Shown here piece by piece: positions 8,847 to 26,650 of a stretch of 26,650 nt of DNA. The DNA lies in assembly GCA_025463615.1 (NCBI GenBank), contig JAODAU010000039.1, forward strand, positions 1-26,650, given 5' to 3'. The stretch's first letter is position 1. Each line of letters begins with the position of its first letter. The position numbers and the translations under genes are program-made. The stretch is from Microbacteriaceae bacterium (GTDB lineage Bacteria > Actinomycetota > Actinomycetes > Actinomycetales > Microbacteriaceae). The notes below the pieces were generated by a model. It ran no database searches. It saw nothing but the letters and a program-made list of their open reading frames with translations, and was not told where the DNA came from.

Positions 8847-8863
8847 CACCGGCTGAGGCCGGG

Positions 8864-8869: not shown

Positions 8870-8875
8870 GGTGTC

Positions 8876-10344: not shown

Positions 10345-10350
10345 CCGTCG

Positions 10351-11676: not shown

Positions 11677-11679
11677 CGT
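11674..11679 (+). promoter_or_regulatory. -10 element of leaderless promoter
   Basis: TAGCGT overlaps the TAG stop codon of the DUF2252 gene and ends 7 nt before the ATG at 11687, with no ribosome-binding site between. It would give the downstream gene an independent leaderless transcript. Confidence 0.5.
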
Positions 11680-11686
11680 TGTCGGC

Positions 11687-12235: not shown

Positions 12236-12238
12236 GGG

Positions 12239-13006: not shown

Positions 13007-13013
13007 GGCCGAC

Positions 13014-13019
13014 AGGGTA
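13014..13019 (-). promoter_or_regulatory. -10 element of leaderless hydrolase promoter
   Basis: Reads TACCCT on the minus strand and ends 7 nt before the hydrolase ATG at 13006. It is back-to-back with the TAGCGT element of the TMEM175-like gene. Confidence 0.5.
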
Positions 13020-13050
13020 GGCGCGCGCCGCCGTACGCACAGCCCCTTGG

Positions 13051-13056
13051 TAGCGT
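13051..13056 (+). promoter_or_regulatory. -10 element of leaderless TMEM175-like promoter
   Basis: TAGCGT ends 6 nt before the ATG at 13063. The intervening GAGGCC could also serve as a weak ribosome-binding site, but it is too close to the ATG for normal use. Confidence 0.5.
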
Positions 13057-13062
13057 GAGGCC

Positions 13063-13707: not shown

Positions 13708-14158
13708 GCCGGCGCAGCCCCGCGCTGCCGGCCTGGCCGTCGGCGACCAGCTCGACATCCGCCCCGTCGCCCGAGTGCATCGACCAGACGATGTTGACGG
13801 GCGGGACCGCGGTCTCGGCGCAGCCCGCGAAGTCGCCGGTGACATCCGGTGTGGACTGGGCGACGATGCAGACGCCGCCCTTCGTGCTGCCGGTGACCCA
13901 GTAGCGGGTGCCGCCATCCGTCGCGACCAGGTGGGAGGTGCTCTCGTCGATGTCGAGCGAGGAGATCGTGGTCGACGCCGGCAGCTCGTCCGCCGCCGTG
14001 CGGGGCGCGTCCAGCACGGCGAACAGCGCGCCGACCCGCAGGGTCGCGGCCGCGTGATGAGTGGGTGTGGGCGTGATGTCCGGCTGGTCGGTCGACGTGC
14101 AGCCGACGAGCAGCAGGGCCGCCGCGAGCGCCAGGACGGATGCGACGCGGGAGATCAC
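13682..14158 (-). CDS. Putative lipoprotein
   Basis: A 158-residue exported lipoprotein. The N terminus MISRVASVLALAAALLLVGC is a lipoprotein signal peptide, with lipobox LVGC and lipidated Cys20. A Thr/Pro-rich linker follows, then a small domain with Cys residues and a YWVTGSTKGGVCIVAQ stretch that I cannot assign. The start is a GTG at 14158 without ribosome-binding site, but a TAGGCT -10 lies 6 nt upstream, so it is probably leaderless. The upstream membrane-protein gene on the same strand ends 16 bp away. The 3' end overlaps the TMEM175-like gene by 26 bp. Confidence 0.75.
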   Translation of the reverse strand: MISRVASVLALAAALLLVGCTSTDQPDITPTPTHHAAATLRVGALFAVLDAPRTAADELPASTTISSLDIDESTSHLVATDGGTRYWVTGSTKGGVCIVAQSTPDVTGDFAGCAETAVPPVNIVWSMHSGDGADVELVADGQAGSAGLRRLSANVWSK

Positions 14159-14164
14159 GACGCC

Positions 14165-14170
14165 AGCCTA
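14165..14170 (-). promoter_or_regulatory. -10 element of leaderless lipoprotein promoter
   Basis: Reads TAGGCT on the minus strand, ending 6 nt before the GTG at 14158. It lies in the 16-bp gap after the upstream gene on the same strand, so the lipoprotein gene can be transcribed alone. Confidence 0.5.
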
Positions 14171-14174
14171 GGGG

Positions 14175-14828
14175 CTAGTGCGCGGGCTGCACCGACTGCA
14201 CGAAGTACGGGATCGCGGCCGGGATGCGGGCAGCGACCACGCGGGCGCCGTTGCTCACGCCGACGGTGACCTGCAGCTGCTTCTGGAAGGCGTGGTCGAT
14301 CGGCCCGGTCGGGTGCTGCTGGAACGTGGACCAGTCGCAGGCGAACTGCCCCTGCGAGTGCATGGTCGACGGCTTGCCCGAGCCGTCCGACGAGACGACG
14401 TACGACGAGCACATCACCGCGCTGCCGTCCCAGAAGACGACCGGGCCGGTCGCGGGCAGGCCGCTGAGGTCGGAGTGCATGCCGGTGTGGGCGAGGGCGT
14501 AGGCCTGCTGGCTCGCCGCGTGCACGGCCGCGAGGTGCGCCTCGTTCTGGTAGATGCCGATCGTGCTCGGGGCGAGAAGGAAGGCCCCCGCGCCGACCGC
14601 CAGGGAGATCATGACGAACAGGAAGATGATGCGCCCGGCGACGGTGCCGACGAGCTCGCCGAAGGTGCGGCGGCGGGCCGACTCGTCGATGCGGCCGACG
14701 ATTTCGTCGAAGGCGAGGTCGATCTCGGCGGTGCTGGAGGAAGCGGTGCTCGAAGAAGCGGTGCTCGTAGAGGCAGCGGTGGTCGTGAGCGCGCGGAAGG
14801 TGATTGCGGGGTCGTTCGTAAGCACCAT
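14175..14828 (-). CDS. Single-pass membrane protein with Ser/Thr-repeat N terminus
   Basis: The family is not recognised. The 217-residue product has a low-complexity cytosolic tail (residues 19-34, STASS repeats encoded by a 15-bp tandem repeat), an acidic segment AEIDLAFDEIVGRIDE, a basic stretch ARRR, one membrane helix at about residues 64-87, and an outer domain of about 130 residues that contains two Cys (AVMCSSY and FACDWST) and may be disulphide-bonded. The ATG has a modest AGGA ribosome-binding site. A 19-bp palindrome lies 18-36 bp upstream. The lipoprotein gene follows in the same direction and a functional link is possible. Confidence 0.72.
   Translation of the reverse strand: MVLTNDPAITFRALTTTAASTSTASSSTASSSTAEIDLAFDEIVGRIDESARRRTFGELVGTVAGRIIFLFVMISLAVGAGAFLLAPSTIGIYQNEAHLAAVHAASQQAYALAHTGMHSDLSGLPATGPVVFWDGSAVMCSSYVVSSDGSGKPSTMHSQGQFACDWSTFQQHPTGPIDHAFQKQLQVTVGVSNGARVVAARIPAAIPYFVQSVQPAH
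14728..14772. repeat. 15-bp tandem repeat, three copies, inside a CDS
   Basis: Three consecutive units beginning GCGGTGCT at 14728, 14743 and 14758. Units one and two differ at two positions and the third degenerates towards its end. On the minus strand they encode STASS-type repeats near the N terminus of the 217-residue membrane protein. The repeat length keeps the frame, so copy number may vary between strains. Confidence 0.7.
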
Positions 14829-14845
14829 GGCGGCATCCTGTCCGT

Positions 14846-14864
14846 GGGAACAGACGATGTTCCC
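14846..14864. promoter_or_regulatory. 19-bp palindrome upstream of the single-pass membrane protein gene
   Basis: Perfect 7-bp arms GGGAACA (14846-14852) and TGTTCCC (14858-14864) around GACGA. It sits between the gene's ATG (14828) and a possible minus-strand -10 (TATACG at 14928-14933), so it would be either an operator or a leader hairpin. It is unlike the CTCACCCG dyads nearby. Confidence 0.5.
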
Positions 14865-15035
14865 GTGGCGGACTGGGCCCAGCAGTTCGCGCGATTTCAG
14901 CGGAACGGGGCAACCCCCGTATAGGTCGATTCTGCGGTCCCGATGGGCCGTTGTCGAGGGGGGCGCGAGCCTCCGTTATCCAAGCGATATCTGGGTGGCC
15001 CGCACTCGGGGGTGGACGGCTCCGAACGGGGGCGT

Positions 15036-15054
15036 CTCACCCGCAACGGGCGAG
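15036..15054. promoter_or_regulatory. Shared 19-bp dyad, site A
   Basis: CTCACCCG-CAA-CGGGCGAG, 15 of 16 arm bases fitting the consensus CTCACCCG-N3-CGGGTGAG. It is centred at 15045, 72 bp before the DUF308 gene heading the 15117-17634 operon. A -10-like CACAGT begins 31 bp from the centre (15076), leaving a leader of about 29 nt with a GGGAG ribosome-binding site. The rest of the 288-bp gap from 14829 holds only the 19-bp palindrome and no gene that I can see. Confidence 0.65.
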
Positions 15055-15116
15055 GATCGGGCCGCTCGACACGGCCACAGTGGGGCCATGGCACGTGGAA
15101 CCGACGGGAGCAGACG

Positions 15117-15728
15117 ATGACGGATTATTCAGCTTCGAGCGACACGGACGTGTTCGGTCTCGACGCCAAGACGCTCGGCCGGTCGGCCATCAACGGCATC
15201 CGGGTGGCGTTCGGGATCATGGGGGTCGTCGCGGTCATCCTCGGCGTCGTGCTGCTCGTCTGGCCGGTCAAGACGGCCGCCGTGTTCACGGTCGCGCTGG
15301 GCATCTACTTCCTGGTCGTGGGCGTCGTGCGGCTCGGCCTCGGCATCTTCAGCCGCGGGATCGGGGGCTGGGAGCGCGCGTTCGACATCTTCCTGGGCGC
15401 GCTGCTGGTGATCCTCGGGATCTTCGCGCTGCGGAACGTGAACGCGTCATCCGCGGCCCTGCTGTTCCTGATCGTGACGATCATCGGCATCGGCTGGATC
15501 CTGGAGGGCGTGTTCGCGATCGCGCAGTCCGGGTCGTCGGGCGCGCGCGGCTGGGCGATCACGTTCGGGATCATCTCGATCATCGCCGGCATCCTCGTGC
15601 TCGTGACGCCCGGCTGGTCGGTGGCGCTGCTCATCCTCTTCGGCGGGATCGTGCTGGTGATCCTCGGCGTCGTCGGCATCGTGCGGGCCTTCACGTTCGG
15701 CCGCGACGCGCTCAAGGCGCTCAGCTGA
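15117..15728 (+). CDS. DUF308/HdeD-family membrane protein
   Basis: A 203-residue protein with a short polar N terminus (MTDYSASSDTDVFGLDAK) and about six closely packed hydrophobic helices, the DUF308 pattern. The ATG at 15117 is chosen for the GGGAG element 8 nt upstream. It heads a probable three-gene operon with the choice-of-anchor-A protein and a GAP-family protein, preceded by dyad site A. A second DUF308 protein in the opposite direction (17645-18259) carries another copy of the dyad. HdeD of enterobacteria is linked to acid resistance; the role here is inferred to be envelope or pH stress. Confidence 0.88.
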   Translation: MTDYSASSDTDVFGLDAKTLGRSAINGIRVAFGIMGVVAVILGVVLLVWPVKTAAVFTVALGIYFLVVGVVRLGLGIFSRGIGGWERAFDIFLGALLVILGIFALRNVNASSAALLFLIVTIIGIGWILEGVFAIAQSGSSGARGWAITFGIISIIAGILVLVTPGWSVALLILFGGIVLVILGVVGIVRAFTFGRDALKALS

Positions 15729-15772
15729 GCACAGCGCCGGACGACGAGGGGCCGGTCCCCGGCGCAGCGGTG

Positions 15773-16960
15773 ATGGCGTCGTGGCGCAGCTGGCTCCCGC
15801 TCGTCGTGGTGGCGCTGCTGGTGGTCGGGGCGATCGCCGTCCAGTACGCCGGGGTCGGGCAAACGACGACGGCCCAGGGCGCCGGATGCCCGGCCTCGGT
15901 CTCCTGGCCGACGGTGACCACCGGCGTCCCGCTGTTCACCGACAACAACGTGTCCGTCTACGCGGGCAAGGACTACACGGCGACGACCGGTGACGCCGAG
16001 TCGGAGGGGCTGCTCGTGGTGATGGGAGACGCGATGTTCGGCGGCACGCGCGACGGCACGTTCACGGTCGGCAGTGTTCCGGTCGGCTCGCAGGTGGCGC
16101 CGAGCCCCGGCACCGAGATGCTCGCCGTGGGCGGCGACCTGAGTGTCGCGTCGAAGTCGCGGCTCAGCGTGGGGATCGGGGTGAAGACCGGCGGGCACGT
16201 CGCGGTCGGCGGGTTGGTGGCGGCGCACTCGACGGTGGACACCGCGGGCGGGGGCATCAGGCACGGCAGCGGGGAGACCGCCGTGGAGGCGTTCCGGGGG
16301 TTCGGGTCGCTCGTCGCGCAGCAGTCGGTCGAGCTGGCGGCATCCGCCCCCACCGCCTCGGCGGCGCTGACCGGCGGCACGCTGTACGTCACCGGAGACG
16401 ACACCGCGACCATGCAGGTGGTGAACATCGACGCGCCCACGCTCGCGCAGGCGACCGCGCTCGACCTGCTCGACATCCCCGACGGCGCCTCGCTCTCGAT
16501 CAACGTGATCGGCGACGGCGCGCGGCTGGCCCTCGACGACATCCAGGAGAAGGGGGCGGATGTCGGCGCCGTCGTCTCCTCGTCGCTGGCCACCCACCTC
16601 CTCTGGAACTTCGTCGATGCGTCGACCGTGCGGGTGGGCGGGTCCCGGGCGCTGCTGGGCAGCATCCTGGTGGCGCGCGGCGACCTCGAGCTGGCCACGA
16701 GCACCAACGGGCGCGTCTACGCGACCGGGTCGATCGCGAAGACCGGCGGCCAGCAGCACGCCTACGCGTGGCTCGGCACCGCCGCCTTCGCGTGCCAGGC
16801 CGACCGGGCCAGCGTGGACCAGGGCGGCGCGCCGACGGCGGCCTCGACCGCGGCGGCCACCCAGCGCAACATCGCGAGCGGGCTGCTCATCCTCGTGGCG
16901 ATCATCGTGCTCATCGCCTGGGCCGTGATGTGGCGCCGGCGCGCGAGGGCCGAATCGTGA
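15773..16960 (+). CDS. Choice-of-anchor-A domain surface protein with C-terminal membrane anchor
   Basis: A 395-residue protein. A hydrophobic helix at residues about 6-23 serves as signal or signal anchor. The exported part has the repeated small-residue beta pattern of the choice-of-anchor-A domain: EGLLVVMGDAMFGG, EMLAVGGDLSVASKSRLSVG, VAVGGLV, and the hallmark end LLWNFVDASTVRVG, ALLGSILVARGDLEL and GRVYATGSI before a His-containing block. A C-terminal helix (GLLILVAIIVLIAWAVMW) followed by RRRARAES anchors it in the membrane. The start is uncertain: GTG at 15770 or ATG at 15773, both with weak ribosome-binding sites, or a CTG at 15725 overlapping the previous stop. Its stop overlaps the GAP gene start by 4 bp. 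Likely a cell-surface structural or adhesive protein. Confidence 0.75.
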   Translation: MASWRSWLPLVVVALLVVGAIAVQYAGVGQTTTAQGAGCPASVSWPTVTTGVPLFTDNNVSVYAGKDYTATTGDAESEGLLVVMGDAMFGGTRDGTFTVGSVPVGSQVAPSPGTEMLAVGGDLSVASKSRLSVGIGVKTGGHVAVGGLVAAHSTVDTAGGGIRHGSGETAVEAFRGFGSLVAQQSVELAASAPTASAALTGGTLYVTGDDTATMQVVNIDAPTLAQATALDLLDIPDGASLSINVIGDGARLALDDIQEKGADVGAVVSSSLATHLLWNFVDASTVRVGGSRALLGSILVARGDLELATSTNGRVYATGSIAKTGGQQHAYAWLGTAAFACQADRASVDQGGAPTAASTAAATQRNIASGLLILVAIIVLIAWAVMWRRRARAES

Positions 16961-17634
16961 GCCTCAACGAGCTGATCGGCCAGCTGCTGCCGCTCGCGGT
17001 GGGCGTGGCGATCAGCCCGCTGCCGATCGTGGCGGTCATCCTCGTGCTGCTGTCGCCGAAGGCGAAGTCGAGCGGGATCGGGTTCCTCGTGGGCTGGGTG
17101 GTCGGCATCGTGGTGGTGGTCGGGGTGTTCACGCTGGTCGGGGGCGTGATCCCGGCGGGCGAGGCGGGCACGCAGCATCCGTTCGTGGGGATCATCAAGA
17201 TCGCGATCGGCGCACTGCTGCTCGCCGTCGGCGTGCGCCTCTGGGTGCGGCGGCCGCGCAACCGGGAGGTGCCGAAGGAGCCGAGGTGGATGGGGCTGGT
17301 CGCCACGATGACGTTGCCCAAGGGGGTGGTGTTCGGCTTCGTGCTCTCGGTGTTCAACCCGGTGAACCTGCTGCTCTCGATCACCGCCGGCATCGACATC
17401 GGGTCGTCGCTGCTGCGGGCCGGCGACGAGTGGATCGCGATCGCGATCTTCACCGTGATCGGGGCGCTGACCGTCGCGTTGCCGGTCGTGGGCTACGTGA
17501 TCGCCGGGTCCCGGGCGACTCCGCTGCTGAACACGCTGCGGGTGTGGCTCATCAAGCACAACGCGATCCTCACCTGCACCATGCTGCTGGTGATCGGCGT
17601 CGACCTGGTGGGCAAGGGGATCGGCACGCTCTGA
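16957..17634 (+). CDS. GAP-family (Sap/LysE-like) membrane transporter, copy 1
   Basis: A 225-residue protein with about six membrane helices. The opening LLPLAVGVAISPLPIVAVIL and the internal FVLSVFNPVNLLLSITAG are typical of the GAP family, named after a mycobacterial protein needed for glycopeptidolipid export and related to LysE-type exporters. The GTG start overlaps the stop of the anchor-A gene (GTGA), so translation is coupled. A clear paralogue is at 22577-23245. The substrate is unknown. The gene converges with the minus-strand DUF308 gene 10 bp later. Confidence 0.87.
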   Translation: MSLNELIGQLLPLAVGVAISPLPIVAVILVLLSPKAKSSGIGFLVGWVVGIVVVVGVFTLVGGVIPAGEAGTQHPFVGIIKIAIGALLLAVGVRLWVRRPRNREVPKEPRWMGLVATMTLPKGVVFGFVLSVFNPVNLLLSITAGIDIGSSLLRAGDEWIAIAIFTVIGALTVALPVVGYVIAGSRATPLLNTLRVWLIKHNAILTCTMLLVIGVDLVGKGIGTL

Positions 17635-17644
17635 TCCAGCTCCG

Positions 17645-18259
17645 TCAGGGGGTTGTGGGCGCCACCGGGGCCGCGTCGTCGGCCGTGTAGGCGTCGTCGT
17701 CGGCCGTGCGGGGCAGCGAGATGAGGGCCCCGATGCCGACGCCGATCAGCACGATGCCGCCGAGCAGGATGATCAGGCCCACCGACACGAACGGCACGAT
17801 CAGCATGATGATGCCGGCGATGATCGTGACGATGCCGCTGGTGATGCGCAGCCAGGTGGGCCGACCGGCCTTGGCCGAGTCGCCCTCCGCGAGCTCGGCG
17901 ATGCCGGAGACCAGCAGCCCGATGCCGAGCGTGAAGCCGAGCACCACCAGCGACCGCGCGAGGTTGACCAGGCACGAGACGCCGGCAGCGACGACGATCA
18001 CGCCGAGGATGCCGTTGAGCCAGCGCCATCCGGTGGTCAGGTCGCTGCCGGTCACCGCGAGCGAGAAGCGCGACGCGCCCAGCACGATGAGGTAGATGCC
18101 GAACGTGATCGCCACGGTCACGAGCCCCGAGCTCGGCCGGAACAGGATGAACAGCCCGAGCACGATCGCCACGATGGCGGCCGTCACGATCCACCGCCGC
18201 TCGAGGGAGAGGGCGCGCTGGCGCCAGTCGAAGGGGGAGCTCTGCGTGTTGGTCGTCAT
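17645..18259 (-). CDS. DUF308/HdeD-family membrane protein, second copy of the cluster
   Basis: A 204-residue protein with about six helices and an acidic C-terminal tail (TADDDAYTADDAAPVAP). The basic N terminus (DWRQRALSLERRWIV) is followed by hydrophobic repeats with Gly-rich turns, as in the paralogue at 15117. On the minus strand CACGCT ends 7 nt before the ATG, so the transcript is probably leaderless. Dyad site G is centred 45 bp upstream of the ATG, inside the end of the SulP gene, so it can be transcribed separately from that upstream neighbour. Confidence 0.87.
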   Translation of the reverse strand: MTTNTQSSPFDWRQRALSLERRWIVTAAIVAIVLGLFILFRPSSGLVTVAITFGIYLIVLGASRFSLAVTGSDLTTGWRWLNGILGVIVVAAGVSCLVNLARSLVVLGFTLGIGLLVSGIAELAEGDSAKAGRPTWLRITSGIVTIIAGIIMLIVPFVSVGLIILLGGIVLIGVGIGALISLPRTADDDAYTADDAAPVAPTTP

Positions 18260-18294
18260 GCGCGCCAGCGTGCCGTGGGGCGTGCGCGGCGAGG

Positions 18295-18313
18295 ATCACC
18301 CGATGGAGGTGAT
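18295..18313. promoter_or_regulatory. Shared 19-bp dyad, site G
   Basis: ATCACCCG-ATG-GAGGTGAT, overlapping the stop codon and last codons of the upstream SulP gene. It is centred at 18304. The minus-strand -10-like CACGCT (18272-18267) begins 32 bp from the centre, as in the other sites. It is the weakest site at the arm ends. Confidence 0.5.
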
Positions 18314-19906
18314 CGCCCGCGCCCGGCCCTCGCGCTCCATCGTGGCCCACCACTCGGTGCGCTTCGCGAGCTGCAGCGCGTCGCCGCCGAGGCCCCGCAC
18401 CTCGAGCCGCACGTCGCGCTCCGCCAGCTCGTGGTCGAACTCGGCGAGCGCGTCGAGCACCGTCACGGAGGCCGAGCGCATGAAGGCGGCGTCGATCACC
18501 AGCGTGCGGATGCCGGGGTCGGCATCCAGCAGCGCCTCGATCGCGCGTTCCGTCGGCAGCACGCTCGCGGTGTAGAGCGAGAGCTGCAGCGAGACCACGA
18601 GGGTCGCGCCCTCGTGCCGCACGTCGAAGTGCGGCTTGCCCAGCTCGTGCAGCACGGCGCCGAGCGTGAACACGACGCCGGCGGCGACAGCCGGAAGCAG
18701 TCCGGCGGCGAGGCCGATCGCGGCCGTCACCACGGCGATCCAGAACTCCAGCCTGCTGACGCGGGCGAGTCGCACCAGGCCGGGCACATCGATGAGCCCG
18801 ATCACCGCCACGAACACCATCGAGGCGAGCGTGGCCTGCGGCAGGTTGTCGAGCACCGGCGCGAGGAACAGCGCGATCAGCACGGCGAGCACCACGGTGC
18901 CCACGGCCGCGAGCTGGCTGCGGGCACCAGCCTTCTGGTTCACCGCGCTCTGCGAGAATCCGCCCGCCGCCGGCAGCGACTGGAAGAACGCGCCGACCGC
19001 GTTCGCCGCACCGTTCGCCAGCAGCTCCCGGTTGCTGTCCACCTGCGGCTCCCCCGCGCGACGGATGCCGCGGGCAACCGACGCCGTCTCGAGGAACGCC
19101 ATCACGGCGATCGCCAGCGCCCCCGGGATCAGCGCGAACACGTGCGTGAAGTCGGGCAGCGCCGGCAGCGGGATGCCTCCCGGCACCCGCGGGATGACCG
19201 CGATCCCCGTCGAGCGCAGGTCGAAGAACGCGACCAGCACGATGGCGATCACCACGATCACCAGCTGGCCGGGCACGCGCGGCGCGAACCGGCGCAGCAG
19301 CACGAGCACGAGGATGCTGCCCACCGACAGCACGAGAGTGGGCACGTTGGTTTTCGGCACGGCCTCCACCGTCGCGACGACCGTGCGGATGAACCCGTGC
19401 CCTGTGGCCTGCACGTCCACCCCGAGCAGCTTCGGCACCTGGCCCAGCGCGACCGTGGCACCGAGCCCCACCTTCAGCCCGATGAGCGTCGCCTCGTTGA
19501 TCATCTCGACCAGCGAGCCCAGCCTGAACACGCGCGCCAGCAGCAGGATCACGCCCACCATCAGCGTGAGCGTCACCAGGACGCGCTGCGGGGTCGTGGA
19601 GGTCGCAGCGACCCCCGCACTCACGAAGGTGGTCGCCGTGAGCGTCGCGATCGTGGACGTGGTGGAGACGCTCATCGCGCGCGATCCGCCGAGCAGGGCG
19701 TAGACGAGCATCGGCGCCATGCAGGTGTAGAGGCCGATCTGCACCGGCAGGTTCGCGATGGTGGCGTAGGCCATCGCCTGCGGCACCACCACGGCGCCGG
19801 CCGCGACGCCCGCCACGACATCGGTGCCCAGCCACCGCGACTGGTACCCGGCGAGGGTGGGGAGGAGCCAGCGCGTTCGGGTGCGGGCTGCGGGGGCGGT
19901 GGTCAC
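18296..19906 (-). CDS. SulP-family anion transporter with STAS domain, copy 1
   Basis: A 536-residue SLC26/SulP transporter. The first 400 residues hold 10-14 membrane helices with the family's first-helix signature (VVPQAMAYATIANLPVQIGL), the GS/SR loop (ALLGGSRAMSVSTTST) and the later ETASVARG and QSLPAAGGFSQSA blocks. Residues about 425-525 form a cytosolic STAS domain (RTLVIDAAFMRSASVTVLDA). Bacterial SulP proteins move sulfate, bicarbonate or dicarboxylates; this cannot be decided here. The usual GPxA-type substrate loop reads STTST, a divergence from copy 2. The GTG start has a strong GAGGAGG ribosome-binding site. Dyad site B lies in the divergent region shared with the formylglycine-generating enzyme. 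Confidence 0.92.
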   Translation of the reverse strand: MTTAPAARTRTRWLLPTLAGYQSRWLGTDVVAGVAAGAVVVPQAMAYATIANLPVQIGLYTCMAPMLVYALLGGSRAMSVSTTSTIATLTATTFVSAGVAATSTTPQRVLVTLTLMVGVILLLARVFRLGSLVEMINEATLIGLKVGLGATVALGQVPKLLGVDVQATGHGFIRTVVATVEAVPKTNVPTLVLSVGSILVLVLLRRFAPRVPGQLVIVVIAIVLVAFFDLRSTGIAVIPRVPGGIPLPALPDFTHVFALIPGALAIAVMAFLETASVARGIRRAGEPQVDSNRELLANGAANAVGAFFQSLPAAGGFSQSAVNQKAGARSQLAAVGTVVLAVLIALFLAPVLDNLPQATLASMVFVAVIGLIDVPGLVRLARVSRLEFWIAVVTAAIGLAAGLLPAVAAGVVFTLGAVLHELGKPHFDVRHEGATLVVSLQLSLYTASVLPTERAIEALLDADPGIRTLVIDAAFMRSASVTVLDALAEFDHELAERDVRLEVRGLGGDALQLAKRTEWWATMEREGRARAITSIG

Positions 19907-19956
19907 GGCATCCTCCTCGGTCCAGCCCAGCGTCGCGGACCGCCGGCCGATGCGGC

Positions 19957-19975
19957 CTCACCCGCAAGGGGCGAG
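19957..19975. promoter_or_regulatory. Shared 19-bp dyad, site B (divergent promoter)
   Basis: CTCACCCG-CAA-GGGGCGAG, centred at 19966 between the SulP gene (minus) and the formylglycine-generating enzyme gene (plus). Minus-strand GACGCT (19934-19929) starts 32 bp away on one side and AAGGAT (19997-20002) 31 bp away on the other, so a single site could serve both promoters symmetrically. Confidence 0.65.
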
Positions 19976-20008
19976 GAGGAATCCCTCCGCCGGTCGAAGG
20001 ATCGGGTC

Positions 20009-20914
20009 ATGAGCACTGCGACGCGCACGCCGGTCGAGCGGACGACCCGCATCGAGGGCGGCACGTTCGCCATGGGCTCCGAGCAGTTCTACGCCGACGA
20101 GGGCCCCGTGCACGAGGTGACCGTCGGGCCGTTCACGATCGACCGCTACCTGGTCACGAACCGCCAGTTCGCCGGGTTCGTGGATGCCACGGGCTACGTC
20201 ACCACGGCCGAGCGCCGCCTCTCGGAGCAGGAGTTCCCCGACCTCGCGCCGGACGAGCGCGCGGGCGGTTCTCTGGTGTTCCGGCAGACGGACGCGCCGG
20301 TGAACCTGCGCGACTGGCGGCAGTGGTGGGAGTGGCGCGTGGGGGCCGACTGGCGGCATCCGTTGGGCGCGGGCAGCTCGATCGAGCTGATGGCGGGGCA
20401 TCCGGTCGTTCAGGTGTCGTACGAGGATGCGAACTCCTACGCCGCGTGGGCCGGCAAGCGGCTGCTCACCGAGCAGGAGTGGGAGTTCGCGGCGCGCGGG
20501 GGGCTCGAGGGCGCCACGTTCGCGTGGGGCGAGGAGCTGCATCCGAACGACGAGCTGATGGCGAACACCTGGCAGGGCGCCTTCCCGTGGCGGAACACCG
20601 GGTCGCACGGCTGGGTGGGCACGTCGCCGGTGGGGTCGTTCCCGGCGAACGGGTACGGGCTGTTCGACATGATCGGCAACGTGTGGGAGTGGACGAGCTC
20701 GCCGTACTCGAGCCGGCACGAGGTGGAGGCGGCGGCGTGCTGCGCGCCGTCCGCGCACGCGAACCCCGGCGAGGCCCGCCGCGTGCTCAAGGGCGGCTCG
20801 CACCTCTGCGCGCCCGAATACTGCCTGCGCTACCGTCCGGCGGCGCGATCCCCGCAGTCCGACGACACGTCGACCACGCACATCGGCTTCCGCTGCGCTA
20901 CTGACGCTCCCTGA
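20009..20914 (+). CDS. Formylglycine-generating enzyme (aerobic FGE/SUMF1 type)
   Basis: A 301-residue FGE-sulfatase-fold protein. It has the start IEGGTFAMGSEQFYADEGPVH, the block LTEQEWEFAARGG, the NVWEWTSSPY block, CCAP near 244-247, and GFRC at the end. Decisively, it keeps both active-site cysteines Cys267 and Cys272 in SHLCAPEYCLRYRPAAR. These bind Cu(I) in genuine FGE and are missing from most fold relatives. The enzyme oxidises a Cys in CxPxR of sulfatases to formylglycine using O2. No sulfatase is in the window. It is flanked by two SulP anion transporters. The ATG is 6 nt after the proposed -10, so it may be leaderless. It overlaps the convergent SulP gene by 17 bp. Confidence 0.92.
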   Translation: MSTATRTPVERTTRIEGGTFAMGSEQFYADEGPVHEVTVGPFTIDRYLVTNRQFAGFVDATGYVTTAERRLSEQEFPDLAPDERAGGSLVFRQTDAPVNLRDWRQWWEWRVGADWRHPLGAGSSIELMAGHPVVQVSYEDANSYAAWAGKRLLTEQEWEFAARGGLEGATFAWGEELHPNDELMANTWQGAFPWRNTGSHGWVGTSPVGSFPANGYGLFDMIGNVWEWTSSPYSSRHEVEAAACCAPSAHANPGEARRVLKGGSHLCAPEYCLRYRPAARSPQSDDTSTTHIGFRCATDAP

Positions 20915-22547
20915 GCTCGCCGAGGGCCTGGCGGTTCGTGCCGTAGATCGTCGCCTGGTGGTGCAGCTCGAGCTTCTCGAGCAGCGCCACGAGGTCGGGG
21001 CGCACCCGGCTGTAGTGCAGGTCCACGCCCTGTTGGTCGATCCAGCCGCGGAGCTTCTCGAAGGTCTCGGCGCCCGTTACGTCGATGTCGGTGATCGCCT
21101 CGAAGTCGAGCACCACGTGTCGCAGGCCGAGCGGCTTGCCTCCGATGACCGCCTTGCGGATGGCGTCGTCGAACACCGACGCGTTCGCGAAGAACAGCGG
21201 CGCCGCGAACCGCACCACGACGACGCCCGGTGCCGTGATGAACTGGTCCGGGTCGAGCGGGAGCAGCGATCCGCCCGGCACGTCGTTCTCGCTCAGCAGG
21301 TCGACCGCGGGCTTCGAGGCCCGCAGCGCCAGGTTGAGCAGCGAGAGCACGAACGCGATCACGATGCCGATGATCGGCCCGAGCAGCAGCGTGCCGAGGA
21401 AGCACGCGGCCCCCACGAAGAACTCGAAGCGCCGCACCCGCCAGATGCGGATGAACTGCCGGATGCCGAGCAGCGGCACCACCGCCACCCCCACGATCGC
21501 CCCGATCGCCGGCGACGGGATGTGCTCGAGCAGCCCCGTGCCGAAGATGACGAGCAGCAGCGTTCCGACCGCGGTCACCACCGAGGGCAGCTGGCTGCGC
21601 GACCCCACCTGGTCGACGGCCGCGGTGCGGGAGGTGGATGACCCGACCGTGAACCCGCCGGTGACCCCCGCCGCGATGTTCGCCGCACCGAACGCGAACA
21701 GGTCGCGGTTGAGGTTGACCGGGTACTCGCGCTTCTGCGCGTAGGACTTCGAGACCAGCAGCCCCTCGCCCATCGCCACCAGCGTCAGCGCCGCAGCGCT
21801 CGGGATCAGCGCCACCCACTGCGCGAACGACAGGCTCGGCCAGGTGAGCGTCGGCGGCCCCGCCTGCACCTTGCCGAGCACCGCGACACCCTGGCTCTCC
21901 AGCCCGGTCAGCACCACCACGAGCGTGGTCACGATGAGCACGATGAGCGCCCACGGCACCCGCCGCGCCAGCCGCTGCCCCACGATCAGCACGCCGATCG
22001 AGCACACCGCGATGAGCAGCGACCAGAGATTGGTCTTCCCCAGGCCGCCGAAGAGCTGCCCCACCTTCTCGACGAACTCGGCGCCGCTGTCGATCTTCAC
22101 CCCGAGCATCTTCGCCACCTGGCTGACCAGGATGTCGAGGGCCAGCCCGCCCACGAACCCGACGAGGATCGGCTCCGAGAGGAAGTTCGCCAGGAACCCG
22201 AGCTTCAGCACCGAGCAGATGAAGAACATCACGCCGCCGATGAGGGCCTGCGCGAGCGCCATCGCGACGTACTCCTTGCCGCCGGAGGTGGCGAGCCCGG
22301 TGAGCGAGGAGGCGACGAGGGCGGCGGCCGCGGCATCCGGCGACGCCACCAGCTGCCTGCTCGAGGCGAGGATGGCGAACAGGAACGCCGGCACGATCAG
22401 CGCGTAGAGGCCCGCGGTGGGCGGCAGCCCGGCGATCTGCGCGTACCCGATGTTGAGCGGCACGGCGATGGCCAGCAGGGTGACGCCGGCGAGCGCCTCC
22501 ATGCCGATCGTGTGCCGGGTGACCCCGGGCAGGATCCTCAATGCCAT
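20898..22547 (-). CDS. SulP-family anion transporter with STAS domain, copy 2
   Basis: A 549-residue SulP/SLC26 transporter. The signature PLNIGYAQIAGLPPTAGLYA is followed by a canonical SSRQLVASPDAAAAAL loop. The membrane part continues to about residue 420. A STAS domain fills the C terminus (HVVLDFEAITDIDVTGAETF), resembling those that bind partners or nucleotides. The ATG at 22547 has a GAGGAG ribosome-binding site. The GAP gene lies 29 bp upstream on the same strand, so GAP-SulP form an operon driven from the region containing dyad C. It differs in sequence from copy 1, so this is not a recent tandem duplication. Substrate unknown. Confidence 0.92.
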   Translation of the reverse strand: MALRILPGVTRHTIGMEALAGVTLLAIAVPLNIGYAQIAGLPPTAGLYALIVPAFLFAILASSRQLVASPDAAAAALVASSLTGLATSGGKEYVAMALAQALIGGVMFFICSVLKLGFLANFLSEPILVGFVGGLALDILVSQVAKMLGVKIDSGAEFVEKVGQLFGGLGKTNLWSLLIAVCSIGVLIVGQRLARRVPWALIVLIVTTLVVVLTGLESQGVAVLGKVQAGPPTLTWPSLSFAQWVALIPSAAALTLVAMGEGLLVSKSYAQKREYPVNLNRDLFAFGAANIAAGVTGGFTVGSSTSRTAAVDQVGSRSQLPSVVTAVGTLLLVIFGTGLLEHIPSPAIGAIVGVAVVPLLGIRQFIRIWRVRRFEFFVGAACFLGTLLLGPIIGIVIAFVLSLLNLALRASKPAVDLLSENDVPGGSLLPLDPDQFITAPGVVVVRFAAPLFFANASVFDDAIRKAVIGGKPLGLRHVVLDFEAITDIDVTGAETFEKLRGWIDQQGVDLHYSRVRPDLVALLEKLELHHQATIYGTNRQALGELRERQ

Positions 22548-22576
22548 GCGTGACTCCTCGGGAGCGGTGGGACGGG

Positions 22577-23245
22577 TCAGAACGCGGCGATGCCCTTGCC
22601 GATGCTGGCGACGCCGAGCACGACGAGCAGCACCGCCATCACGACTGCGTTGTTCTCCACCAGCCAGCCGCGCATGCGCTGCAGCGCCGGCTTCACGGCG
22701 TTCGGCGCGATCACGTAGGCGAGCACCGGGATGGCGATGGTGAGGATCGAGATCACCACGAAGATCGCGACGGCCAGCACCACCCCGCCGGCGCTGAGCT
22801 TCGCCGTGCCGATCGTGACGCCCGCCGAGATGCCCATCATCAGGTTCTTCGGGTTCGCCGCGGAGAGCAGCAGGCCCAGCCCGATGGCCTTGATCGGCGT
22901 GATGGAGTCGATGGCCGACATCCACTTCGGGGTCGCGGCCGTGGCGCCGTCGCGCGGGCGGCCACGCCACTGGTGCAACGCGACGAACAGCAGCAGCACG
23001 CCCAGCACGATCTTGATCACACCGACCACCGGCTGCGACCCGCCCGACGACTCGGGGATCAGCCCCGACAGCAGGGTGAACACCACGGCGACCACGAGGA
23101 TGCCGACCGTCCAGCCGAGAAGGAATCCCAGCCCGTTCGAGCGCGCCCGCGCCGAGAACAGCATGAGGATCGCCGCGATGATCGGCAGCGGGCTGATCGC
23201 GACCGCGACCGCCAGCGGCAGCAGGTCGCCGATGACGCCGTTCAC
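22577..23245 (-). CDS. GAP-family (Sap/LysE-like) membrane transporter, copy 2
   Basis: A 222-residue paralogue of the 16957 gene: DLLPLAVAVAISPLPIIAAI aligns with its opening, and LLLSAANPKNLMMGISAGV with its FNPVNLLLSITAG block. It has six or so membrane helices. The GTG at 23245 is chosen by that alignment and by a GGAAAG element 10-15 nt upstream. It is the first gene of a GAP-SulP operon. The pairing of GAP with SulP here and of GAP with DUF308 and anchor-A in the other operon suggests a common physiological role, but no substrate can be assigned. Confidence 0.87.
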   Translation of the reverse strand: MNGVIGDLLPLAVAVAISPLPIIAAILMLFSARARSNGLGFLLGWTVGILVVAVVFTLLSGLIPESSGGSQPVVGVIKIVLGVLLLFVALHQWRGRPRDGATAATPKWMSAIDSITPIKAIGLGLLLSAANPKNLMMGISAGVTIGTAKLSAGGVVLAVAIFVVISILTIAIPVLAYVIAPNAVKPALQRMRGWLVENNAVVMAVLLVVLGVASIGKGIAAF

Positions 23246-23308
23246 GCCCCGCCGCTTTCCGTGCACCCGATCATCCGCCCAGCCCACCACCGGGGCTCGC
23301 GGCACCGG

Positions 23309-23327
23309 CTCACCCGAACGGGGCGAT
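23309..23327. promoter_or_regulatory. Shared 19-bp dyad, site C
   Basis: CTCACCCG-AAC-GGGGCGAT, centred at 23318, 73 bp before the GAP-SulP operon start. On the minus strand TGGGCT (23286-23281) begins 32 bp from the centre; it lacks the usual A at position 2, so it is the weakest -10 candidate of the set. Confidence 0.6.
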
Positions 23328-23335
23328 CACGCCCC

Positions 23336-23354
23336 CTCACCCCGGGCGTGTGAG
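23336..23354. promoter_or_regulatory. Shared 19-bp dyad, site D
   Basis: CTCACCCC-GGG-CGTGTGAG, centred at 23345, 27 bp from site C. TACCGT (23377-23382), a good actinobacterial -10, begins 32 bp from the centre and gives the MscS gene a leader of about 20 nt with a GGGAGG ribosome-binding site. The paired sites C and D serve the two divergent promoters. Confidence 0.6.
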
Positions 23355-23408
23355 CCGTCGGCCCGCGGATGCCGCCTACCGTTGCCGCACGGACCCCCGG
23401 GAGGCACG

Positions 23409-24224
23409 GTGATCAGCGACTTTCTCAGCTCGGCGAAGCTCGACGGCTGGGACCTGCTGCTCGCGCTCGTGATCGTGATCGCCGGCTGGATCGCGGCCAG
23501 CCTGGCGAAGCGCGGCACCGCCAGGCTGGTGCGCCGCATCCCCAGCGCGACGGATGCCACGGTGACCCTGGTCGCGCGGATCGTGCGCTACGGCATCCTG
23601 CTGCTCACCCTCGGCATCGTGCTCACCGTGCTCGGGGCGCCGCTGCAGCCCGTGCTCGCCGCCGCGCTGATCATCGTCGCGATCGGGGTGATCGCGCTGC
23701 GCGGGATCGCGTCGAACTTCGGGGCGGGCCTCGTCATCCAGATCCGGCGGGTGGTGCACGTGGGCGACGAGATCGAGGTGCTCGACCACCAGGGCATCGT
23801 CACCGAACTCAACGGGCGGTCGGTGATCATCAACACGGCGGAGGGCACGACCGTGCGGCTGCCGAACTCGTCGGTGCTCGACAGCCCGCTCGTCAACTAC
23901 ACCGAGCGCGCGCTCTACCGCAGCGAGCTCGAGGTGCGGGTGCGCGGCGAGCGGCCGTGGCGGGAGGCGCACGACCTGATCGTCTCGTCGCTCGAGGCGA
24001 CCGAGCACATCCGCTCGGTGCCGTCGGTGGAGGCGCTGCTCGCGCTGCACAGCCCCACCCAGCACACGTTCCGGGTGCGCTTCTGGCACGAGCCGCGGCA
24101 CCGCGGGGAGCTGCGGTCGGCCGCGACGGCTTCGCTCGCGGACGCCTTCACCGCGGCGAGCATCGACGCCACGGTGGCCTGGCCGGTGCCACCCCCGCCG
24201 CTCACACCACCCCCCGAGGTGTGA
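23409..24224 (+). CDS. MscS-family mechanosensitive channel
   Basis: A 271-residue small-conductance mechanosensitive channel. Three membrane helices occupy about residues 10-110; the pore-lining third helix and start of the beta domain read VIALRGIASNFGAGLVIQIR. The beta domain shows VHVGDEIEVLDHQGIVTELN and the conserved LPNSSVLDSPLVNYT, followed by an alpha/beta C-terminal part. It releases solutes on hypo-osmotic shock. The GTG has a GGGAGG ribosome-binding site at 8 nt. The gene has dyad D upstream, and its stop codon lies in a hairpin. Confidence 0.93.
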   Translation: MISDFLSSAKLDGWDLLLALVIVIAGWIAASLAKRGTARLVRRIPSATDATVTLVARIVRYGILLLTLGIVLTVLGAPLQPVLAAALIIVAIGVIALRGIASNFGAGLVIQIRRVVHVGDEIEVLDHQGIVTELNGRSVIINTAEGTTVRLPNSSVLDSPLVNYTERALYRSELEVRVRGERPWREAHDLIVSSLEATEHIRSVPSVEALLALHSPTQHTFRVRFWHEPRHRGELRSAATASLADAFTAASIDATVAWPVPPPPLTPPPEV

Positions 24225-24225
24225 G
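24201..24225 (+). terminator. Hairpin spanning the MscS stop codon
   Basis: Perfect 8-bp arms CTCACACC (24201-24208) and GGTGTGAG (24218-24225) around a 9-nt C-rich loop. It includes the TGA stop at 24222-24224. It may terminate mscS, but the arms also resemble the CTCACCCG half-site and abut dyad E, so a regulatory role is possible. Confidence 0.5.
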
Positions 24226-24244
24226 GTCACCCCGGCCGGGTGAT
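24226..24244. promoter_or_regulatory. Shared 19-bp dyad, site E
   Basis: GTCACCCC-GGC-CGGGTGAT, centred at 24235 and 70 bp before the DUF6325-like gene. GACCAT (24267-24272) begins 32 bp from the centre and would give a leader of about 26 nt ending in a GAGGGATC ribosome-binding site. Confidence 0.6.
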
Positions 24245-24304
24245 GCCCCCGCGCGGGGGCCGCGGAGACCATGGCCTGGTCCGCGACTGGGATAGCGAGG
24301 GATC

Positions 24305-24709
24305 ATGGGGCCGATCGATGTCGTCGTCGTCACCTTCCCGAGCGCCGGGCTGGCGGCGGGGATCGGGCCCCTGCTGCAGGAACTCGTCTCGGGCGGCACC
24401 CTGCGCGTCGTCGACGCGATCCTCGTCGACCGCGACGACGACTCCGCGCCGATCGTGACCGACCTCGACGACAGCATCGTGCCCTCCTGGTCGACGATCA
24501 GCGCCCACCCGCTCCCCCTGCTCAGCGCGGATGACGCCTCCCTGGTCGCCGAGGACCTGCGGCCCGGCGAGGTGGCCGTCATCGTCGTCGCCGAGCACAC
24601 CTGGCCGCAGGCCTTCGCGCGCGCCGCCGTCGACTGCGGCGGCAACGTCGGGCTCCACGCGCGCATCGCGCCCGAGGCGGTGCGCGTCGCGGCGAGCGTG
24701 GGCGCGTAG
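24305..24709 (+). CDS. DUF6325-like protein
   Basis: A 134-residue soluble protein beginning MGPIDVVVVTFPS, the pattern I associate with DUF6325, a small actinobacterial family usually found beside SHOCT proteins. It has alternating beta strands and helices (LVSGGTLRVVDAILVDRDDD, LRPGEVAVIVVAEHTW, AFARAAVDCGGNVGLHARI) that suggest a ferredoxin-like or stress-protein-like fold. No catalytic residues are evident. The ATG has a GAGGGATC ribosome-binding site. The SHOCT gene follows 11 bp later and is cotranscribed. Confidence 0.78.
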   Translation: MGPIDVVVVTFPSAGLAAGIGPLLQELVSGGTLRVVDAILVDRDDDSAPIVTDLDDSIVPSWSTISAHPLPLLSADDASLVAEDLRPGEVAVIVVAEHTWPQAFARAAVDCGGNVGLHARIAPEAVRVAASVGA

Positions 24710-24720
24710 GGGGCGGCCCG

Positions 24721-24951
24721 ATGTCCATCTTCAGGAGGTCCGGTCGACCCGGGCTGCTCGGCAGTGTCTCGGAGGCGGACATCGTGTCGGGGTCGGACGC
24801 GATGTGTTCGCGCGTGGTGGGGCGCGGGGCCGCGGCATCCGACCCGCGGAGCGACCGGCTCGCGACCCTCGCGCGGCTGCACGACGACGGCGCGATCGGC
24901 GACGAGGAGTTCGAGCGGGCCCGGGACCGCATCCTGGCCTCGCCCGCCTAG
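24721..24951 (+). CDS. SHOCT-domain small protein
   Basis: A 76-residue protein whose last 31 residues form a SHOCT motif (RLATLARLHDDGAIGDEEFE, then a helix with RDRILA): a short amphipathic helix, an acidic turn and a second helix, usually C-terminal and involved in oligomerisation or membrane-protein association. The N-terminal 45 residues are polar and Arg/Ser-rich without recognisable fold. It is cotranscribed with the DUF6325-like gene. Its TAG stop lies within dyad F, which belongs to the downstream regulator gene. Confidence 0.85.
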   Translation: MSIFRRSGRPGLLGSVSEADIVSGSDAMCSRVVGRGAAASDPRSDRLATLARLHDDGAIGDEEFERARDRILASPA

Positions 24952-24966
24952 CCCGAAACGGGTGAG
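24948..24966. promoter_or_regulatory. Shared 19-bp dyad, site F (regulator's own promoter)
   Basis: CTAGCCCG-AAA-CGGGTGAG, centred at 24957 and overlapping the SHOCT stop codon. The right arm is a perfect half-site. The -10 TACCCT (25006-25011) begins 49 bp from the centre, so here the dyad would be at about -61 rather than -43. Suggests autoregulation of the LAL regulator. Confidence 0.6.
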
Positions 24967-25005: not shown

Positions 25006-25011
25006 TACCCT
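25006..25011 (+). promoter_or_regulatory. -10 element of leaderless promoter of the LAL regulator
   Basis: TACCCT ends 6 nt before the ATG at 25018, with no ribosome-binding site. No convincing -35 is visible, in keeping with activator-dependent transcription. Confidence 0.55.
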
Positions 25012-25017: not shown

Positions 25018-26650
25018 ATGGTCAGGGAGGTACGCGGCCTGGCACCGCGTACGGCACAGGGCAAGATCAGGTCGCCCCAGGTTGAACGGTGGGCGGTCGA
25101 GCGACCGCGCCTCGTGGAGGCGCTCGACGCGGCCTTCGAGGATCCGTCGCTTCCGTTCATCATGGTGAGCGCGCCGGCGGGGTACGGCAAGTCGTACCTG
25201 CTGGCGCAGTGGGCGGCGCTGCAGCGCGACCGCGGGGTGCTCACCGCGTGGTGCGAGCTCACCGAGGACGACCGCGACCCGACCGTGTTCTGGTCGACGA
25301 TCATCGACTCGCTGGCGCGCGCGGCGGCGAGCCTCGACCCGGAGTTCGTCGCTCGGCTGCGCGCGCTCGAGCCGGCAACCGCGCCGCGCGACCACGCGAT
25401 GTTCGTCGCCACCCTGTTCGACAGCGTCGAGACGCACGACGGGCCGATCTGCCTCATCGTGGACGACAGCCAGCGGCTCGAGGGGTCGCCCTCCGAGACG
25501 GAGTTCGTGCGCCTCATCCAGCTCGTTCCGGACAACGTGCGGCTCGCCTTCGCCACCCGCAGCGCGCTGCAGTCGCAGTCCTCCCGGGTGAGCGGCCGAC
25601 TGGTGGAGCTCACGGCCGACTCGCTCTCGTTCACCCGGGTCGAGGCGGCCGAGCTGTTCGCCCTGCGAGGGTTCGTCGACTCCGACATCGAGCGGCTGTA
25701 CGAGACGGCGGAGGGCTGGCCCGCGGCGCTCAGCCTCGCCGCGCTGAGCGTGGATCGGGCACCGGCGAGCGGGCTCGTCATCACCGACTGGAGCAACCCG
25801 GGCGAGCTCACCGCCTACCTGCAGAGCGAGGTCTGGAACGACCTCGACGAGGAGGAGCGCGCCGTGCTGCTGCCGTTCGGCGTGATGCCGCTCGCCACCC
25901 CCGAGCTCGTCGACCTGCTCGCCGACGTGCCCTGCTCGGCCAGGGCGCTGCGCGAGCTGGCGGCGAACAACAGGATGCTGCGCCGCGTCTCCACCGACGA
26001 CCACGAACGCACCTGGTACCGGGTGCAGCCCCTCTTCTCGGCGTTCCTGCGCGAACGCATCCTCGAGTCCGGCCCGGCCACACTCGCGGCCATGCGCAGG
26101 ACGGCGGCGCGCTGGCACGCCGACAACGGCTACACGCTCACCGCCCTGCGGCTCGCGCTGGAGTCGCAGGACACCGGGCTGATCGACGACATCCTGCGCG
26201 TGCACGGCTACCAGCTGGTGAGCGACGGGCACGGCGAGCAGCTGCTCGACATGATGCCGAGCGCGCCCAACCGGCTGATGACCGGCCCGTTCGCGCGGCT
26301 GATGATGGCCTACGCCTCGGCCTGCTGCGGCAAGGCGGATCGGGCCACCGAGTTCCTGGCGAACCCGCGGATCGACGACCTCGGCGTGGGCGACCTGCTC
26401 GAGTGGGACTGGCTGCACTACCTCGCCGAGCTGCAGATCGCGGTCGCCACGGGCACTCCCGTCGACCGCACCAGCTCAGGCTGGGAGGAGGAGACGCTCG
26501 CCGACGTGCCCGACGCGCTGCGGCTCGCGATCCGGCTCACCCGCGGCCTCGAGGCCGTTCGCGTGGGCGACGAGGCGGAGGCGAACAGCGACCTCAGCGC
26601 CGCCCTCGCCGCGGCCGAGAACGAGGAGGACCTGTCGAACATCGTGCTCG
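25018..26650 (+). CDS. MalT/LAL-type STAND ATPase transcriptional regulator (3' truncated)
   Basis: The frame stays open from the ATG to the window end (544 complete codons), so the gene continues outside. Residues 51-62 are a Walker A of the MalT type (SAPAGYGKSYLL, Lys58) followed by AQWAA. Walker B is ICLIVDDSQRL with Asp149 and Asp150. The sensor-like FATRSAL and the ETAEGWPAALSLA block are hallmarks of large ATP-binding LuxR-family (LAL) regulators. Helical repeats begin after about residue 350 (ARWHADNGYTLTALRLALES). The C-terminal LuxR HTH expected at about residue 800-900 is beyond the window, so DNA binding is inferred. Dyad F lies upstream; I propose this protein binds all copies of the dyad. 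Confidence 0.88.
   Translation, partial: MVREVRGLAPRTAQGKIRSPQVERWAVERPRLVEALDAAFEDPSLPFIMVSAPAGYGKSYLLAQWAALQRDRGVLTAWCELTEDDRDPTVFWSTIIDSLARAAASLDPEFVARLRALEPATAPRDHAMFVATLFDSVETHDGPICLIVDDSQRLEGSPSETEFVRLIQLVPDNVRLAFATRSALQSQSSRVSGRLVELTADSLSFTRVEAAELFALRGFVDSDIERLYETAEGWPAALSLAALSVDRAPASGLVITDWSNPGELTAYLQSEVWNDLDEEERAVLLPFGVMPLATPELVDLLADVPCSARALRELAANNRMLRRVSTDDHERTWYRVQPLFSAFLRERILESGPATLAAMRRTAARWHADNGYTLTALRLALESQDTGLIDDILRVHGYQLVSDGHGEQLLDMMPSAPNRLMTGPFARLMMAYASACCGKADRATEFLANPRIDDLGVGDLLEWDWLHYLAELQIAVATGTPVDRTSSGWEEETLADVPDALRLAIRLTRGLEAVRVGDEAEANSDLSAALAAAENEEDLSNIVL

Follow-up and report, generated by a model that had tools for sequence, protein, structure and literature searches.

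Genes and palindromic sites of the cluster

The window analysed here, the whole stretch of 26,650 nucleotides from a Microbacteriaceae bacterium (GCA_025463615.1, contig JAODAU010000039.1, positions 1 to 26,650), contains a gene cluster that runs into the end of the window and in which every predicted transcription unit is preceded by a copy of one 19-bp inverted repeat (dyad). These dyads are candidate operators of the LAL (MalT-like STAND/LuxR) regulator that is encoded by the last gene of the cluster. They mostly lie at a fixed distance from -10-like hexamers, are retained in front of orthologous genes, and recur elsewhere in the Actinomycetota beside LAL proteins of one subclass.

Gene families were assigned by Pfam and NCBIfam profile matches. 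The cluster starts with a plus-strand operon coding for a DUF308/HdeD-like membrane protein (HdeD1; 15117..15728; PF03729, E 7e-17), a choice-of-anchor-A/ice-binding-like adhesin domain protein (15773..16960; TIGR04215, E 8e-39; PF20597), and a SfLAP (GAP) family membrane protein (SfLAP1; 16957..17634; PF11139, E 4e-45). It is followed by minus-strand genes for a second DUF308/HdeD-like protein (HdeD2; 17645..18259; PF03729, E 2e-18) and a SulP family anion transporter (SulP1; 18296..19906; PF00916, E 2e-87), a plus-strand gene for a formylglycine-generating-enzyme-like protein (FGE; 20009..20914; PF03781, E 3e-81), and a minus-strand pair consisting of a second SfLAP (GAP) family membrane protein (GAP2; 22577..23245; PF11139, E 6e-49) preceding a second SulP transporter with a STAS domain (SulP2; 20898..22547; PF00916, PF01740). 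The plus strand then carries genes for a MscS-like mechanosensitive channel with a GTG start (23409..24224; PF00924, E 6e-15), a small DUF6325-like protein (24305..24709), and a short SHOCT-domain protein (24721..24951; PF09851, E 7e-9). The DUF6325-like protein matches PF19850 with an E value of 0.005 and 17.3 bits, below the cut-off of 23.4; a homologue in another locus (L150; 35% identity) exceeds this cut-off. The LAL gene (25018..26650, plus strand) closes the cluster, the window ending inside it.

Seven dyads with the core TCACCC-N5-GGGTGA were found, each at the coordinate given by the sequence-only reading of this DNA. They lie before the HdeD1-anchor-A-SfLAP1 operon (15036..15054, plus strand), before HdeD2 (18295..18313, minus strand), between the divergent SulP1 and FGE genes, which have one dyad in common (19957..19975, no strand), before GAP2-SulP2 (23309..23327, minus strand), before the MscS-like gene (23336..23354, plus strand; 27 bp from the 23309 dyad), before the DUF6325-like gene (24226..24244, plus strand), and before the LAL gene (24948..24966, plus strand). 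As that reading had also claimed, the spacer between the 8-bp arms is always 3 bp, equal to 5 bp between the core hexamers, and a dyad stands ahead of all eight predicted units from HdeD1 to the LAL gene. Two dyads overlap stop codons, namely 18295 that of SulP1 and 24948 that of the SHOCT gene. Six of the seven differ by at most three mismatches from the full 16-letter consensus CTCACCCGNNNCGGGTGAG; the dyad at 18295 (ATCACCCGATGGAGGTGAT) has four mismatches and keeps most of the core. A scan of the window with this consensus gave seven matches, these six dyads and one site at 3345 that lacks the core, versus 0.54 on average and at most 2 in 100 dinucleotide shuffles of the window. Scored with a matrix trained on the seven sites, the dyads reached 18.3-22.0 and the next-best place in the window 11.1, a self-trained and partly circular comparison. 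Among 24 training sites (window plus orthologues), the half-sites are TCACCC or the variants TCGCCC and TCACCT, and not TCATCC/GGATGA.

The LAL regulator and its orthologues

An AAA_16 match covers the N-terminal ATP-binding part of the LAL protein, and the Walker A residues A52, P53, A54, G55, G57 and K58 are invariant in 33 sequences. A protein search returned a single tight group of relatives (P0001-P0035; 37-95% identity), followed by a drop to 33%; its named members belong to Galbitalea, Glaciihabitans and Conyzicola. The GerE domain was examined in the orthologues. P0001 (886 aa), 95% identical to the LAL of the window, has it at the C-terminus (PF00196). At an E value of 1e-60, an orthologue was found in at least four of 398 genomes of the family (G055, G171, G040 and G125; 39-47% identity), and none besides that of G055 was listed for 396 genomes of the order; in both searches mostly the first three candidates per genome were scored, so that orthologues may be missed. 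Genus-level searches added none.

Promoter architecture

Offsets were counted from the end of the 19-bp dyad to the first base of a -10-like hexamer NANNNT. Such a hexamer begins 21 or 22 nt past the dyad in six of the seven non-LAL promoters of the window, namely CACAGT at 21 (HdeD1 operon), CACGCT at 22 (HdeD2), GACGCT at 22 and AAGGAT at 21 on the SulP1 and FGE sides of their common dyad, TACCGT at 22 (MscS-like gene), and GACCAT at 22 (DUF6325-like gene). The same holds for 11 of 13 independent non-LAL promoters, other offsets giving 3-5% per offset pair. The exceptions are GAP2 of the window, with a weak hexamer (TGGGCT) at 22 and no NANNNT at 21/22, GAP2 of G055, and the SulP2 side of the dyad at 14393 in G171. 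Three promoters of genes that are not orthologous to window genes, each with NANNNT at 21/22, were omitted from the 13 (the AI-2E gene at 7511 and the DUF1269 gene at 18926 in G171, and the DUF1269 gene at 26524 in G055). Also omitted were the upstream member of tandem LAL dyads (G040 16380 and G171 16162), the distal orientations of the 23309/23336 pair of the window, and sites in LAL-less genomes.

The LAL promoters are built differently. In the window and the four orthologues, TACCCT, TAGGGT, TATATT, TATTCT and TATATT begin 39, 39, 37, 38 and 40 nt past the dyad, respectively, and the start codon follows 6-7 nt further on in all five LAL genes (in the window, TACCCT at 25006..25011, plus strand, lies 6 nt before the ATG). 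If a -10 element begins at -12, the centres of the non-LAL dyads would be near -43, a class II position, and the LAL promoters would form a second class with the dyad centre at about -61, a class I position. The sequence-only reading had put -10 hexamers at a fixed distance in seven of the eight units and all dyads at about -43. This stands for the non-LAL promoters, except that TGGGCT of GAP2 does not fit, and fails for the LAL promoter. In 21 of 22 promoters, LAL and non-LAL together, TTGACA is matched at no more than three of six positions 15-19 nt before the -10, the LAL promoter of G125 reaching four of six. In seven of 17 non-LAL genes the start codon likewise lies 6-7 nt past the -10; such start codons fit leaderless transcripts.

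Conservation of the dyads

A dyad lies directly 5' of the LAL gene in the window and in all four orthologue genomes, with tandem copies 20 bp apart in two of them (G040 and G171). G055 retains much of the cluster, with dyads before the LAL gene (a perfect match), the DUF6325-like gene, GAP2-SulP2, HdeD2 and in the common FGE/SulP1 promoter. In G171, dyads precede FGE/GAP2, MscS/SulP2, the DUF6325-like gene, the LAL gene and a DUF1269 gene, and a weaker one precedes an AI-2E gene. They stand before the DUF6325-like and LAL genes in G040, and before GAP2 (with a matrix score of only 11.2) and the LAL gene in G125, where FGE, located on a separate contig, retains a dyad, followed by AAGGCT at 22. 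A matrix built from the window sites only and applied to 142 kb of these four genomes found 18 sites scoring at least 13, versus 1.14 expected under a first-order Markov model. Fifteen of them precede LAL, DUF6325-like, GAP2, FGE/SulP1, HdeD2, SulP2/MscS or DUF1269 genes, and three are without explanation (G055 17845, G055 23142 and G125 13014). The gene caller gave wrong coding and intergenic labels to true promoters (34002 and G125 16356 as coding), and promoters were therefore judged by hand from orthologous gene starts. Two outcomes named beforehand as speaking against a regulon, a dominance of matches in coding regions and an absence of dyads from orthologous promoters, did not occur.

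Among 30 FGE loci of the family, taken from 82 genomes with an FGE match, a dyad with at most three mismatches precedes FGE in both loci of LAL carriers versus two of 28 others; one of the latter two (G118) adjoins another LAL of the same GerE subclass. For a more distant FGE copy, in G040, no dyad is present in 17 kb.

A DUF1269 gene is present near the LAL gene in three of the four carriers (L114 19014-19502, L111 5955-6497 and L112 19164-19652), and the DUF1269 dyads of G171 and G055 have a -10 at 21 and 22, respectively. Dyads that are not linked to an orthologous LAL gene, with a -10 at 20-22 nt, were seen at L160 10991, L158 8275, L154 7002 and L155 420, followed by a tyrosine phosphatase gene, an unassigned start, an AI-2E transporter gene and a PLDc_N-SHOCT gene, respectively.

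Occurrence in other Actinomycetota

A motif-first search of 376 Actinomycetota genomes gave 19 exact dyads in 16 genomes, versus three for the reversed pattern. Besides G055 there are 15 exact-dyad loci, and six of these have a -10 at 21/22. Loci of G793, G1058, G1088, G844 and G783 that were fetched more widely (the contigs of G783 being short) contain relatives of HdeD, PLDc_N-SHOCT, DUF7144, DUF6325, SulP or DUF1269 proteins. A LAL gene is found near the dyads in G793, G1058 and G1088 and lies 10-15 kb off in G844. No LAL match was present in the stretches examined of G1079, which has the -10, and G1087, which lacks it, and these two dyads may be due to chance.

In a second, GerE-first route, large GerE proteins were ranked by GerE domain score, and 40 loci of up to 20 kb were hand-picked among the matches listed, a full site being defined as a matrix score of at least 15 plus a -10. 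The 21 loci with at least 86 bits contained 32 sites scoring at least 15, of which 25 were full, and nine loci had at least one full site. The 19 loci below 86 bits had six sites, three of them full and all in one locus. The reversed-sequence control gave 0 and 1 sites, respectively. For loci with a full site, the difference between the two groups has a Fisher P of 0.009, and the Spearman coefficient for the 40 loci together is 0.46 (P 0.0025). Twelve of the high-scoring loci come from genomes without an exact dyad, and four of these hold 18 sites, 15 of them full.

The geometry recurred as well. In 24 protein-selected loci, four of which are the orthologues, a spacer of 5 between inverted half-sites was counted 47 times and each other spacer 2-15 times; the -10 offsets number 26 at 21, 11 at 22 and at most seven at any other. 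Without the orthologues, 36 spacer-5 sites remain, with offsets of 21 (21 times) and 22 (nine times). No spacer-5 peak was seen in 80 unselected LAL loci, which are distant LALs of at most 32% identity obtained with too-general peptide patterns, nor in 20 low-scoring loci. The two top GerE scores among the 80 belong to L042 and L064, the sole bearers of full sites there. When perfect 6-bp inverted repeats with spacer 5 and a -10 were counted de novo, in a set that includes loci found by the motif, TCACCC came up 28 times and the next half-site four times (masked runs aside).

Three tandem LAL genes lie near dyads in L064 (Pseudonocardia; 3586-12583), and three tandem GerE matches do so in G844 (contig C8, 230081-235231). 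In L042, a metagenome-assembled genome of the Nitriliruptoraceae, an alkyl sulfatase gene (14698-16584) with a full site is located near a LAL-SulP pair.

Downstream of full sites, 52 proteins were compared with profiles at E 0.01, 50 from outside the four carriers and two from G055 and G125; they were retained from 60 downstream open reading frames after eight poor or overlapping calls were dropped, two more full sites having no open reading frame. They comprise DUF7144, SHOCT and PLDc_N (eight each), DUF308 (five), alkyl sulfatase (four), and sulfatase, SfLAP, AI-2E and DUF6325 (two each), with L148, L150 and L153 chosen for their FGE content, which favours sulfatases in these counts. Taken together with the FGE and SulP genes of the window, these families suggest that the output of the regulon is the handling of membranes and sulfate esters. 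A role in envelope, osmotic or pH stress, as proposed from the sequence alone, is plausible for the candidate regulon, and the presence of FGE, SulP, sulfatases and alkyl sulfatases points to sulfate esters as an additional theme.

Relation to known regulators

In Actinoplanes sp. SE50/110, the LAL regulator MalT (ACSP50_3915) activates a large region, the MRLGR, as shown by deletion and overexpression (Droste et al. 2020; PMC7567727). Seventeen start sites there carry TCATCC-5nt-GGATGA, with 34.4 ± 1.0 nt from the end of the motif to the start. MalT binding was inferred, no DNA-binding assay being part of the results or discussion of that paper, and the malT operon itself falls within the deletion. 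Both systems have a LAL inside a large cluster that it activates (a prediction for the window) and inverted hexamers 5 nt apart, overlapping the -35 region in Actinoplanes. The position of the -10 agrees too, 22-23 nt counted from the hexamer plus about 12 nt predicting about 34-35 nt to the start. In contrast, the half-site differs by one base (TCATCC there, TCACCC here), and the named targets of MalT include the arginine deiminase pathway and amino-acid genes, unlike those found here. Both forms of the half-site are present in a Cryobacterium locus (L153) and in the Pseudonocardia locus L064. The former (742-19623), with FGE, SulP2, SfLAP, DUF6325, sulfatase and LAL genes, has mostly the TCATCC form and, containing the same gene families, bridges the systems of the window and of Actinoplanes. 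Its FGE copy has internal stops.

The MalT box of Escherichia coli, GGGGA(T/G)GAGG (quoted in PMC7567727 and PMC9628970), is likewise bound by a LAL family member, resembles the present half-site in part and overlaps the -35 region. It occurs as repeats, direct ones according to the title of one cited work, whereas GGGTGA is inverted here. MalT-type direct repeats were rejected as a description of the present sites, direct repeats of GGGTGA showing no single preferred spacing. IniR of mycobacteria, which regulates an envelope-stress operon, is a multidomain ATPase resembling MalT (PMC5760070); the main text of that paper contains neither the word palindrome nor inverted repeat.

The sequence-only reading had presented the cluster as a candidate undescribed regulon. 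No description of it was found in the open-licence literature, subscription journals being mostly outside the search. The architecture of the Actinoplanes system (PMC7567727) and the half-site of the Streptomyces regulator BldM (PMC4125116) are, however, published. What is new is the wider range and the different output of an Actinoplanes-type architecture with one base of the half-site changed.

A candidate LAL regulon and alternative explanations

The conservation of the dyads in orthologous promoters, the fixed distance to the -10 and the recurrence beside one GerE subclass all favour the LAL-activator regulon proposed in the sequence-only reading, with the amendment that the LAL promoter has its dyad at about -61 instead of -43. 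We consider it very probable that the LAL encoded by the last gene of the cluster uses the dyads as its operators, with predicted class II positions at the structural genes and class I autoregulation. An ATP-bound, signal-activated LAL oligomer would set two GerE (LuxR-type) domains on TCACCC and GGGTGA, 5 bp apart, and would activate promoters that have a -10 but no good -35. At the structural genes, with the dyad near -43, it would act as a class II activator. At its own gene, with the dyad near -61, it may act from a class I position, resulting in autoregulation. The output would consist of membrane, transport and sulfate-ester genes. The LAL subclass, the geometry of the dyads and several of the target families recur in other Actinomycetota.

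Several observations weigh against this reading. First, the window covers 544 codons of the LAL gene, and the GerE domain predicted from the orthologues would lie beyond its end. Second, genome-wide counts at two mismatches (21 versus 6 in the control for the four carriers; 29 versus 19 for nine other genomes) separate LAL carriers from the others only weakly. Third, nine of the 15 exact-dyad loci lack a -10 at 21/22, among the dyads being the perfect one of G1087, which has neither this -10 nor a LAL gene within 20 kb. Fourth, 12 of the 21 high-GerE loci have no full site, nor have eight of the 12 that belong to genomes lacking an exact dyad. Fifth, the line at 86 bits was drawn at analysis and the loci were hand-picked among the matches listed, and the closeness of LAL and target genes is partly imposed by the choice of loci. 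Lastly, the half-site equals that of BldM, which means that another GerE-fold regulator could bind.

A BldM-related response regulator of the NarL/FixJ type could occupy the dyads instead of the LAL. BldM is an activator whose homodimer footprints a palindrome, and its Group I box (TCACcCgnncGgGTGA) has the identical half-sites TCACCC/GGGTGA (PMC4125116); moreover, GerE proteins of 200-340 aa are numerous in the genomes searched. BldM is, however, an orphan response regulator of development, and its box has a spacer one base shorter, with 4 bp between the hexamers, a spacing found twice in the protein-selected loci versus 47 times for spacer 5, and the 16-bp Group I palindrome was rejected as a description of the present sites. 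Furthermore, the sites follow the GerE subclass of the LAL and the promoter of the LAL gene itself, and the published LAL-dependent motif of Actinoplanes has a spacer of exactly 5 (PMC7567727). A response regulator is thus an unlikely occupant.

It is less likely still, and indeed highly improbable, that a repressor uses the dyads as operators overlapping the -35 region. They do occupy a place expected for the polymerase, and the LAL SCO6993 of Streptomyces coelicolor acts as a repressor and binds palindromes, including at its own promoter, for which its authors could derive no consensus (PMC9628970); binding by the LAL of the window is a prediction. Yet the lack of a good -35 in 21 of 22 promoters fits an activator, the rigid spacing of 21-22 nt with a second class at 37-40 nt fits class II and class I activation, and the relative in Actinoplanes is an activator (PMC7567727). 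Finally, a chance selection by eye of GC-rich palindromes, of which this 72% GC window holds 24-45 near-perfect 8-bp examples at each spacer tested, has a negligible probability, being contradicted by the shuffles, the reversed controls, the independent promoters and the spacer and offset peaks.

Returning to the LAL as the predicted activator, the balance tips slightly towards a regulon type that is local, undescribed and Actinomycetota-wide. In it, LALs of one GerE subclass would act on genes nearby through TCAYCC-N5-GGRTGA placed at about -43, and at least one lineage would have class I autoregulation. The output in much of the phylum would be an envelope/sulfate-ester response (DUF7144, PLDc_N-SHOCT, HdeD, DUF6325, DUF1269 and sulfatase-FGE-SulP), and the letters of the half-site would change along with the LAL.

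To our knowledge, few LAL regulators have a known operator or regulon. The family has been called poorly studied (PMC3282765). A rule combining the subclass GerE domain, TCAYCC-N5-GGRTGA and a -10 at 21-22 nt would allow regulons to be read from sequence. It would also link sulfatases, FGE and SulP transporters to DUF7144, DUF6325, PLDc_N-SHOCT and HdeD-like proteins in a common regulatory context, and would offer matched class I and class II promoters for studying a STAND activator.

Other features of the window

The choice-of-anchor-A/ice-binding-like adhesin gene (15773-16960) is located within an operon with two membrane genes; no homologue of it was seen in the 142 kb of the four orthologue genomes. 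Outside the cluster, a partial Lhr-type helicase gene (144-2216) is followed by a gene for a Fpg/Nei-like DNA glycosylase (2232-3008). A further gene (5126-6442) encodes a CBM5/12 domain together with a GH18 match below the cut-off, possibly a chitinase-like protein.

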